A DNA stretch of 49,486 bases from Candidatus Zhuqueibacterota bacterium (GTDB lineage: Bacteria > Zhuqueibacterota > Zhuqueibacteria > Oceanimicrobiales > Oceanimicrobiaceae). Position numbers and translations under genes: made by a program. Below are positions 44,132 through 49,486 of the stretch, piece after piece (position 1 is the stretch's first letter; every line of letters starts with the position of its first letter). The notes beneath the pieces are model-generated. The model saw only the letters and a list, made by a program, of their open reading frames with translations, did not search any database and had not been told where the DNA came from. The stretch lies in assembly GCA_029262005.1 (NCBI GenBank), contig JAJDAG010000004.1:1-49486 (forward strand), given 5' to 3'.

Positions 44132-44478
44132 ATGCTGCTTGTTTGAATTTCTGCGTTAGGCATGCCCTGAAAGCGCGTGCCACCCATTTATGTTATTTTA
44201 GCGCCACGGGCACCCGGCGCACTCTCAGGTCTGCTGTTTGGCACGGCCCTGACTTGTGATGCGTTTGTTTGGCTCGCCCTTTATTTGGCGGGACAGAGTC
44301 CCTGTATTATTGGTGCGTCGGGGATACCCTTTTGAGATTTGTGGGTGGTAAAAATCCACGACAAGCGTAAGTAATGTCCCAAGCGACTGCTCGCACTCCG
44401 GGTAACAAAACAGTCTGCCGGATCCGGCTACGGGCGGGCTCACAAACCCTAGGGTGAAACGATCTCGACGGACTGTTT
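44132..44478. other. Cassette-like spacer
   Basis: This begins with GCGTTAGGC, an attC-core-like heptamer at 44155-44161, then a loose palindrome (CCTGA at 44166 against TCAGG at 44225) and a 27-base direct repeat at 44245. The remaining bases to 44478 show no credible gene. Confidence 0.4.
44245..44271 (+). repeat. 27-base perfect direct repeat, copy 1
   Basis: This is identical to 46550-46576, in the same orientation, starting GGCCCTGACTTGTGATGCG. Both copies lie about 115-155 bases upstream of a - strand gene and next to a GTTAGGC heptamer. Confidence 0.85.
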
Positions 44479-46511: not shown

Positions 46512-46549
46512 GTCGGCAACCCTGCCCTCAAAAATACGGTCCTTGGCTT

Positions 46550-46576
46550 GGCCCTGACTTGTGATGCGTTTGTTTG
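46550..46576 (+). repeat. 27-base perfect direct repeat, copy 2
   Basis: This is identical to 44245-44271. It lies 39 bases beyond the GTTAGGC end of the long attC-like site. Confidence 0.85.
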
Positions 46577-47295: not shown

Positions 47296-47580
47296 ATGAA
47301 AGAATTAAGTTTTGAATGGGATTCCAACAAGGCTACAGAAAATTATAAGAAGCATGGCGTCACATTCAAAGAAGCGCAAACTGTTTTCTTTGACGACTAT
47401 GCAGTTGAATTCTATGACGATGAACATTCCGAATGGGAAGATAGATTTCTGTTGCTTGGTCTTAGCGCCAAATTGCGTTTGCTGATGGTTTGCCATTCTT
47501 ATCGTGAACATGAATCAACTATTAGAATAATATCTGCTCGTAAAGCTACAAAAAATGAATCTAAACATTATAAAAGGTGA
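47296..47580 (+). CDS. brnT: BrnT-family ribonuclease toxin
   Basis: This 94-residue protein matches BrnT, the toxin of a type II toxin-antitoxin pair that halts growth by RNA cleavage. Family landmarks are FEWDSNKATENYKKHGVTFKEA at the start, a DDY-EFYDDEHSEWEDR middle, LLLGLSAKLRLLMVCHSYRE, and the terminal IRIISARKATKNESKHY. ATG 47296 is chosen because it opens the conserved region; the open frame begins further upstream without a start signal. The gene is AT-rich like the rest of the cassette. The antitoxin gene follows after six bases, the standard order for brnTA, and the pair is cytoplasmic. The toxin domain appears complete. Confidence 0.9.
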   Translation: MKELSFEWDSNKATENYKKHGVTFKEAQTVFFDDYAVEFYDDEHSEWEDRFLLLGLSAKLRLLMVCHSYREHESTIRIISARKATKNESKHYKR

Positions 47581-47586
47581 TCCAAA

Positions 47587-47808
47587 ATGAAAGAAGAATA
47601 TAACCTCTCCAAAATGAAATCGAGACGCAATCCATATGCTAAGAGACTAAAAAAGCAAGTAACCTTACGTATGGGCTCCAACATCGTCGATTACTTCAAG
47701 CAAATGTCTGAAGAAACAGGCATTCCATATCAAAGTCTAATAAACCTTTATTTGCAGGACTGTGTAGAATCAAATCGTAAACTGGAAATGCACTGGCCTT
47801 CGCGCTAA
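47587..47808 (+). CDS. brnA: BrnA-type antitoxin, ribbon-helix-helix
   Basis: This 73-residue protein matches BrnA antitoxins. An N-terminal linker (YNLSKMKSRRNPYAKRLKKQ) precedes a ribbon-helix-helix DNA-binding fold (VTLRMGSNIVDYFKQMSEETGIPYQSLINLYLQDCV). BrnA covers the BrnT active site through its N-terminal part and represses its own operon through the ribbon-helix-helix domain; both roles are known of the family. The stop codon lies within the CGCTAAC left core of an attC site, a placement typical of integron cassette genes. Together with brnT it forms an addiction module that stabilises cassette arrays. Confidence 0.88.
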   Translation: MKEEYNLSKMKSRRNPYAKRLKKQVTLRMGSNIVDYFKQMSEETGIPYQSLINLYLQDCVESNRKLEMHWPSR

Positions 47809-47848
47809 CAAACGGTTGAGCGGCGACAGTCCGCCTCGAACCGATAGT
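47803..47848 (+). other. attC site of the brnTA cassette, left part (split by group II intron)
   Basis: The order is CGCTAAC (47803-47809), AAA, CGGTTGAGCGG (47813-47823), a 7-base centre, CCGCCTCGAACCG (47831-47843), ATA, then GT. The site is completed by TAGAC at 49255-49259, giving GTTAGAC, a perfect GTTRRRY core. Two bases in the right inner box have no partner, as expected of extrahelical attC bases. Joined, the site is 51 bases long. Confidence 0.8.
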
Positions 47849-49254
47849 GTGTGCCCGGCATGGCACGTGTATATTTTGAATATTAAAATATACACAGATT
47901 ATCCAGAGGGTGCAAGTCCCTTATGGGCGAGTTGGCGAAGCCCATTAGTAAGCCGCAAGGGTGTTCCGGGTGACCGGGAGTCTGAAGGAAGCGGGACTAC
48001 AAGAGTCTGTACGGAGGAACACTGGCCTTGCATCAAACATCAGGTTGAAAGCGGAAGTTACCAACCCGCCCCGATTCTGGGCGTTGAGATACCCAAGCAC
48101 AACAGCAAAACCCGCCTGCTGGGTATTCCAACAGTTGGTGACAGGGTGCTACACCAAGCCCTGCACCAGCAACTCAGCCCGATTTTTGAGCGGGACTTCT
48201 GCCGACATAGTTACGGTTTTCGTCCCAATCGCAATGCCCATCAGGCCGTCACTCAAGCGTTGGAAAATATTAACGATGGTTATCACAACATCGTAGATAT
48301 TGACCTGAAAAGCTTCTTTGGTGAAGTCAGTCATGAGCTTTTAATGACCCTGATTTATCGCCGGGTGAAGTGTCCACAAACCCTGAAACTCATTCGTAAG
48401 TTTTTACGGGCTCCTATTTGCATTAACGGGAAGCTTGTGAAAAGACGCCAAGGCGTACCACAAGGCAGCCCGCTCAGTCCATTGCTCTCCAATATCGTTC
48501 TGAACGAGTTGGACAAAGAGCTGGAACGACGCGGTCACCGCTATGTAAGATATGCCGACGATTTCAGCATCTACCTCCGCAGTAAAGCGGCGGCACGGCG
48601 AGTCGGAAACAGCATTTATTTGTTTCTGCGCGATAAGCTGCGCCTGCCGATTAACCGGGAGAAAAGTGGAATCCGGCGTCCGGGTAAGTTTTATATGCTT
48701 GGTTATGGCTTTGTGCCTGTTTTTCGTAAAGGCTCGAAAAGAAAGTACCAGCTTGTGGTGGACCGTTCAGCGCTCAGACGTTTGAAAGCGAAGCTCAAAT
48801 TCATCACTCGTAAAACCATTCCTGCCGGCTTCGCCGAACGTATCGCCCGGCTGAACCTTGTCATGAAAGGGTGGATTCACTATTTCCGACTGGCCAATAT
48901 GTATGGCAAGTTGCAAGAAATAGATGTATGGATACGTCGCCGGCTGCGCCGCTGCATTTGGCATGACTGGAAGAAACCGAACCGTAAGGTGAAAAATCTT
49001 ATTCGTTTGGGAATACCCCCGGGTATGGCTTACGCGTGGAGCCGCACCCGCAAGGGTGGTTGGGCGGTGGCTTGCAGCCCGATTCTGGGCACAACCATTA
49101 CCTTGGACAGATTGGGTAGAAGGGGATATATCTCAATGCTATCGTACTATCTTAAACTAACTCGTGGTTAATGAACCGCCGTATTCGAGACCCGAACGTA
49201 CGGTGGTGTGAGAGGCGCACTCCGGTTGTTTTCAACCGGAGCCGCCTACTCGAT
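47849..49254 (+). mobile_element. Group II intron, class C-attC type, internally deleted
   Basis: The 5' end GTGTGCCCGGCATGG fits the GUGYG intron start. AGAGGGTGCAAGTCCC and GGTGACCGGGAGTCTGAAGG are domain I segments. GAACCGCCGTATTCGAG to ACGTACGGTGGT at about 49173-49207 is domain V, and the last hairpin ending CCTACTCGAT with a bulged A is domain VI. Only about 165 bases lie between the 5' end and the reverse transcriptase homology, against several hundred in complete introns, so domain I to IV sequence is missing. Insertion directly 3' of an attC stem-loop and before TAGAC matches class C-attC introns. Confidence 0.82.
48014..49171 (+). pseudogene. Group II intron reverse transcriptase/maturase, N-terminally truncated
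   Basis: The frame encodes a group II intron-encoded protein from the motif EHWPCIK and GSYQPAPILGVEIPK onward: GIPTVGDRVLHQAL, FCRHSYGFRPNRNAHQAV, VDIDLKSFFGEV, RQGVPQGSPLSPLLSNI and the catalytic YADD in RYVRYADDFSIYL. A maturase domain X follows (MKGWIHYFRLANMYGKLQE), with GGWAVACSPIL and LSYYLKL at the end. No endonuclease domain is present, which is usual for class C. The RT0/GAAGIDGM region of about 60 residues is missing and no credible start codon with a ribosome binding site exists within the intron. The open frame continues upstream into the 5' exon, but that part is intron RNA or exon sequence. Confidence 0.85.
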
Positions 49255-49442
49255 TAGACGTTTTAAAACAAAACTTGAGTATTGATTAGCCCCAAAATGC
49301 CCAACTACTTACACTATATTTATTTTTATAACTCTTCCTTTTTAAATCTTAGTTTCAAGTTCCAAGTGCGACAGTTTTAAAAATGGGTTAATTGCATTAT
49401 ATTAAGTTCGCAATTGACCAAAACCACAAACTGGAGCACGTA
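49255..49442. other. 3' exon and spacer before IS30 element
   Basis: TAGAC at the left end completes the attC core. The rest is AT-rich. A copy of GGGTTAATTGC near 49384 and the following bases may include the end of the IS30-family element. No gene is visible. Confidence 0.4.
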
Positions 49443-49486
49443 ATGCCCTATAAGCAATTAACCCATGAGCAAAGATACACAATTTA
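49443..49486 (+). mobile_element. IS30-family transposase, first codons (runs off right edge)
   Basis: The last 44 bases open with ATG and read MPYKQLTHEQRYTI, which fits the start of IS30-family transposases (xYKxLTxEERYQI). The rest lies outside the window. An insertion sequence here would fit the decayed state of the cassette array. Confidence 0.65.

Follow-up and report, generated by a model that had tools for sequence, protein, structure and literature searches.

The 49,486-nucleotide stretch of DNA analysed here (the window, a contig of a Candidatus Zhuqueibacterota bacterium) carries a group IIC intron on its + strand (47849-49254) within a short attC-like hairpin. Very probably, an intron of a Bacteroidota-type lineage inserted into an attC site and was later internally deleted, and the adjacent brnTA toxin-antitoxin pair is not the owner of that attC. 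The features of the locus are the following, with the evidence for each in brackets:

47296-47580, +, brnT toxin gene, adjacent to the attC and apparently inverted relative to its polarity (PF04365, 99 bits; G063 homologue between two attC-like sites, also inverted)
47587-47808, +, brnA antitoxin gene, with a stop codon overlapping the attC R' box (PF12441, 34 bits, and PF14384, 29 bits; sequence)
47803-47848, +, putative attC bottom strand from R' (CGCTAAC) to the first bases of R'' (GT), a short hairpin with extrahelical C-N3-G on the 3' arm (sequence; DNA fold; arm score 27.0, both bulges on the right arm)
47849-49254, +, group IIC intron, internally deleted (Rfam matches; ends common to relatives; intact relatives about 1850 nt)
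47849-48021, +, 5' part of domain I, 97% identical to L014/L170 (blastn; 97%-identical copies in G018 and G073)
48021-48022, +, deletion junction, 505 nt with CAC microhomology (alignment to L014; Rfam RF02001 and RF01998)
48022-49171, +, reverse transcriptase (RT)/maturase fragment comprising an RT domain with YADD and a maturase domain, lacking a proper start codon (Pfam RVT_1, 130 bits, and GIIM, 63 bits; TIGR04416, 344 bits; in-frame start codons checked)
49174-49254, +, intron domains V-VI and the 3' end CTACTCGAT (RF00029, 37.9 bits)
49255-49259, +, 3' exon TAGAC, which completes R'' GTTAGAC (sequence)
49443-49486, +, possible start of an IS30-like transposase (MPYKQLTHEQRYTI), 14 aa, cut by the contig end and 183 bases past the 3' exon (sequence reading only)

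The intron and its insertion site

The insert of 1406 nt is flanked by GATAGT (47843-47848) and TAGAC (49255-49259), with exon/intron junctions that read ...CGCTAACAAACGGTTGAGCGGCGACAGTCCGCCTCGAACCGATAGT|GTGTGCCCGGCATGG... at the 5' side and ...CCGCCTACTCGAT|TAGACG at the 3' side, the first and last letters of the intron thus being GTGTGCCCGGCATGG and CCGCCTACTCGAT. The Rfam model for domains V-VI (Intron_gpII, RF00029; E 2e-5) matches at 49174-49254 and ends exactly on the last base of the intron, a further match (group-II-D1D4-3, 47964-48059) covers part of domain I, and the intron ends are common to relatives (5' GTGTGCCC, 3' CTACTCGAT|T). These GTGTG...CGAT ends fit the 5' GUGYG and 3' AY of group IIC, the closest PDB structures of the RT are group IIC RTs (GsI-IIC as best match at 336 bits, the next group II maturase at 297 and LtrA at 112), and a tree built without an outgroup places the protein among class C relatives. 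The preliminary description of this DNA, which had proposed a group II intron in the GTTRRRY core of an attC, directly after a stem-loop, was therefore correct in the position of both ends and of the hairpin.

Its further proposal, that removing the intron restores GTTAGAC with a complementary CTAAC and two unpaired bases, agrees with both the sequence and the fold. The joined exons read CGCTAAC-AAA-CGGTT-GAG-CGG-loop-CCG-C-CTC-G-AACCG-ATA-GTTAGAC, and this 51-mer folds as DNA into an attC-like hairpin that ends at the insertion point (-11.0 kcal/mol, z -2.97; 1 of 200 shuffles folds as well). The R boxes CTAAC and GTTAG are complementary, the core GTTAGAC conforms to GTTRRRY, and the two unpaired bases, C and G, both lie on the right arm of the hairpin (C-N3-G). 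With the insertion site held fixed, the simple attC arm score is the best of its neighbourhood and is equalled at 1 of the 764 GTT[A/G] positions in the window; it resembles the best chance hits when the window is scanned freely, and the attC of Kl.pn.I3 scores 39.8 and two host attCs score 42.0 and 44.5. The N3 spacing of the extrahelical bases falls outside the N5-N8 described and tested for attC (PMC3053210), the site is only about 51 nt long and its IBS1 is TAGT, not TTGT. Our reading is that this attC is short or has decayed. Neither intI nor a second attC was found on the window contig.

Transcription terminators are the second known kind of target for group IIC introns, which often insert after them (PMC4424553), and we found relatives of this kind (L092, L093, L176 and L183, on plasmids) that share the group IIC RT and ribozyme with the window copy, but are inserted past a GC-rich hairpin with a T-run and belong to a different clade. 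It is nevertheless highly unlikely that the window hairpin is the terminator of brnTA and its attC look a coincidence: while the brnA stop codon overlaps the start of the hairpin and the attC score is modest, the stem has no following T-run, a terminator scan calls none there, and the nearest T-run (4 T) lies well over 10 nt past the stem in the joined exons. Moreover, the AAC/GTT cores and the presence of both bulges on one arm fit an attC, and same-clade copies in the host class occupy attC hairpins, not terminators. Terminator insertion is thus not favoured over insertion into an attC.

Internal deletion of the window copy

Over its 5' ~174 nt the window intron is 97% identical to L014, in which the next base of the window copy is found 505 nt further on. 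Missing from the window copy are domains II-III together with the 3' half of domain I before them, and the beginning of the intron-encoded protein (IEP), start and about 42 codons included (MITQVLSSENMKRAYAQVL... in L014). The assignment of domains II-III to the lost stretch follows from the usual domain order of a group IIC intron and from Rfam matches, as RF02001 scores 33 bits in the window copy versus 114-122 bits in intact relatives, while RF01998 is matched in the intact relatives and absent from the window copy. The open frame from 47816 reads through ribozyme sequence and lacks a proper start, and the RT fragment keeps the YADD motif and the maturase domain. L014 is apparently the same contig as G073:C314; G073 belongs to the host's class, and the metagenome-assembled genome (MAG) of L014 is labelled Actinomycetota.

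Activity requires a complete ribozyme (domains I-VI) and a complete IEP, neither of which the window copy has, and the loss of 505 nt, taking ribozyme parts together with the IEP start, would leave it able neither to splice nor to make a full-length maturase. Judged from its sequence, the window intron is probably a dead, non-functional deletion derivative, which the preliminary description did not recognise; the deletion itself could be an assembly error. No second copy of the intron, and no intact one, was found in the host genome, whose other RTs are only 27-34% identical to the window RT; no partner acting in trans was thus found.

Shortened forms also occur elsewhere. An ORF-less 587-nt version (L136 / L167, G018:C32:5110-5283 and on), still matched by the models for domains I, III-IV and V-VI, lies in an attC hairpin ending TTTTGT|TAGAC. 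A 450-nt derivative with one common deletion junction, devoid of most of the ribozyme and of the ORF, recurs at several distinct sites across two genera, with 90-95% identity (L165, G024:C23, at 2803, 5504 and 7070; L168/L144, G070:C221:2519).

Strand polarity, brnTA and the host integron

The brnTA module consists of a BrnT toxin domain and a BrnA/CopG antitoxin in one operon, and the attC had been assigned in the preliminary description to this toxin-antitoxin cassette, an assignment that the polarity of the hairpin contradicts. With both extrahelical bases on its right arm, the + strand would be the bottom strand of the attC, such that the intron sits in R'' in the canonical manner and the attC points away from brnTA and is not the cassette's own site. 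The cassette owning the attC probably lay to the right of 49259, with brnTA inverted at the left, and is not visible because the contig ends 227 bases past the 3' exon.

The same polarity is seen in other copies. A hairpin that ends at the junction is present in 11 of 14 intron copies from the same class, and in each of these the right arm has the greater number of unpaired bases, the 3' exon being taken as TAGAC where the contig or copy is incomplete; several of the same-class copies have genuine 3' exons (TTGT|TAGAC). The classical IIC-attC intron Kl.pn.I3, which lies opposite to blaIMP-4, likewise has the extrahelical bases of its 5' exon (T-N6-C) on the right arm. A search of 119 relatives yielded no uninterrupted copy of the window attC site; the closest homologue of brnTA (G063, 72% identical) is followed by a different attC. 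This homologue lies between two attC-like sites, one of them with an ambiguous bulge pattern, has its neighbour genes on the other strand and shows the same inverted sense as the window pair.

An attC belonging to the brnTA cassette would require insertion of the intron into the top strand, reported once, in Enterobacter cloacae (cited in PMC7923331). This arrangement would suit the location of brnTA directly upstream and on the same strand as the intron, with its stop codon in the R box, and has a precedent of same-orientation intron and cassette in Aeromonas pR148 (L179), but the right-arm position of both unpaired bases marks the + strand as a bottom strand, and in G063 the brnTA homologue is inverted with respect to the attCs on either side of it and to its neighbour genes. 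We consider it very unlikely, and reject top-strand insertion on the position of the extrahelical bases. Further left of brnTA, a 34-nt direct repeat (94% identical) is found at 44238-44271 and 46543-46576 of the window, 2.3 kb apart.

The host genome also encodes a 336-aa integron integrase (IntI) on another contig, C106 (TIGR02249, 442 bits versus a cut-off of 265). Host attC sites, sought on individually chosen contigs, are located at C106:579-706 and C106:31083-31214, and both are stronger than the window attC. To the left of IntI lie two - strand genes and then an attC with its extra bases on the + strand, so that its bottom strand is opposite to the cassette genes, as expected. C106, with IntI, opposite-strand genes and attC, has no link to the window contig; the two sites share the genome and the polarity rule, but the C106 attCs are longer and higher scoring than that of the window. 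The earlier remark that the host is an unusual one is fair, although it has a true IntI and introns of the classical clade occur in its family and class. C106 also appears, when read by eye, to encode a T9SS-type C-terminal domain, a feature that may point to the FCB group.

Lineage of the intron and its Bacteroidota relatives

Group IIC-attC introns insert into the attC bottom strand at TTGT/T of R'', after the stem-loop and opposite to the cassette genes (PMC7923331). The window site fits in position and strand, its core is TAGT/T and the owning cassette gene would lie outside the contig. With S.ma.I2 and Kl.pn.I3, the window intron shares the group IIC ribozyme, an apparent location in the attC bottom strand at R'' directly past the stem-loop, the GT|T core and the lack of a matched endonuclease domain; it differs from them in its protein, which falls into a separate clade, in TAGT instead of TTGT and in its internal deletion.

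In two protein trees (91 and 32 rows, no outgroup), the window protein groups with L013 (Fidelibacterota) and L014, and the three branch first within a mainly Bacteroidota clade (100/100) that has a long stem, apart from a classical attC clade that unites Kl.pn.I3, L178 and L182 with L116, L118 and L119 of the host class (99/95 and 100/100 in the two trees). The window protein is 41-44% identical to the plasmid relatives versus 55-88% within its own clade. It is thus a group IIC protein outside the classical IIC-attC clade: the preliminary description was right to expect it among class C relatives and wrong to expect it in the class C-attC lineage, even though the intron targets an attC. Forcing the two clades together costs 11.5 log units (p-AU 0.104), so their union is not rejected, the clades may be sisters, and attC targeting need not have arisen independently in the two. 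That the intron is simply a diverged classical IIC-attC intron, as supposed earlier, would accord with this AU test and with a target core, strand and position like those of Kl.pn.I3, but is unlikely given the two trees and the lower identity to the plasmid relatives.

Introns of the classical clade are present in the host's family and class (L118 in G020, L116 in G049 and L119 in G066), such that two attC-associated lineages coexist there. A group IIC intron of Aeromonas hydrophila pR148 (L179, from 2050 on) has the same orientation as its aadA1 cassette, which places it in the attC top strand, and falls outside the classical attC clade.

The history that we favour would begin with a full-length group IIC intron of the mainly Bacteroidota lineage, which also includes Fidelibacterota and the host's class, reverse-splicing into a single-stranded attC bottom strand, directly 3' of the folded stem-loop and between GT and TAGAC of the R'' core. 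The attC would have belonged to a cassette to the right of 49259, where an IS-like element and the end of the contig now follow. A later deletion of 505 nt between short CAC repeats may then have cut out everything from the 3' half of domain I to the beginning of the maturase gene, domains II-III included, leaving a copy without splicing or full-length maturase in a still interrupted R'', with brnTA inverted on the other side.

Among the Bacteroidota members of the clade with both ends seen, most junctions are TGT|T[A/G], and many members have as their 5' exon one arm of a ~131-nt palindrome whose cores are AAC...GTT. In Formosa and Polaribacter, such palindromes recur every ~1-4 kb, the first ones within a few kb of tyrosine recombinases (376-384 aa) that score just above the cut-off for NF040815 and under that for integron integrases, with the IntI patch region unmatched; one ~131-nt repeat is 99% identical between the two genera. 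The introns of Polaribacter filamentus (L064-L070) and Formosa (L090) share with the window copy the 100/100 clade, the intron ends and the TGT|T[A/G]-type junction, but unlike it are full length (about 1850 nt) and lie in ~131-nt palindromes that lack the canonical two extrahelical bases.

According to published surveys, Bacteroidetes contain very few integrons (PMC9024848), and we found no report of the ~131-nt palindromes in the open-access literature searched. The palindrome arrays are possibly an unrecognised integron-like platform. Tentatively, the window intron may mark a second attC-targeting group IIC lineage, distinct from the classical lineage and with its centre in Bacteroidota, that resides in ~131-nt attC-like palindromes beside patch-less tyrosine recombinases, the arrays being such a platform in a phylum for which hardly any integrons are reported. 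Previous descriptions treat group IIC-attC introns as a single specific lineage, with a proposed role in the assembly of gene cassettes. If there is indeed a second lineage, widespread at attC or attC-like sites, attC targeting would be broader than this, and its introns would serve as independent markers of integron-like arrays in phyla with few hits by standard finders; the window copy is itself no more than a dead marker of such a history. Palindrome arrays can be seen in Formosa at G004:C1:333000-352000 (L197), in Polaribacter at G001:C13:1446000-1455000 (L200), and at L065 and L070.
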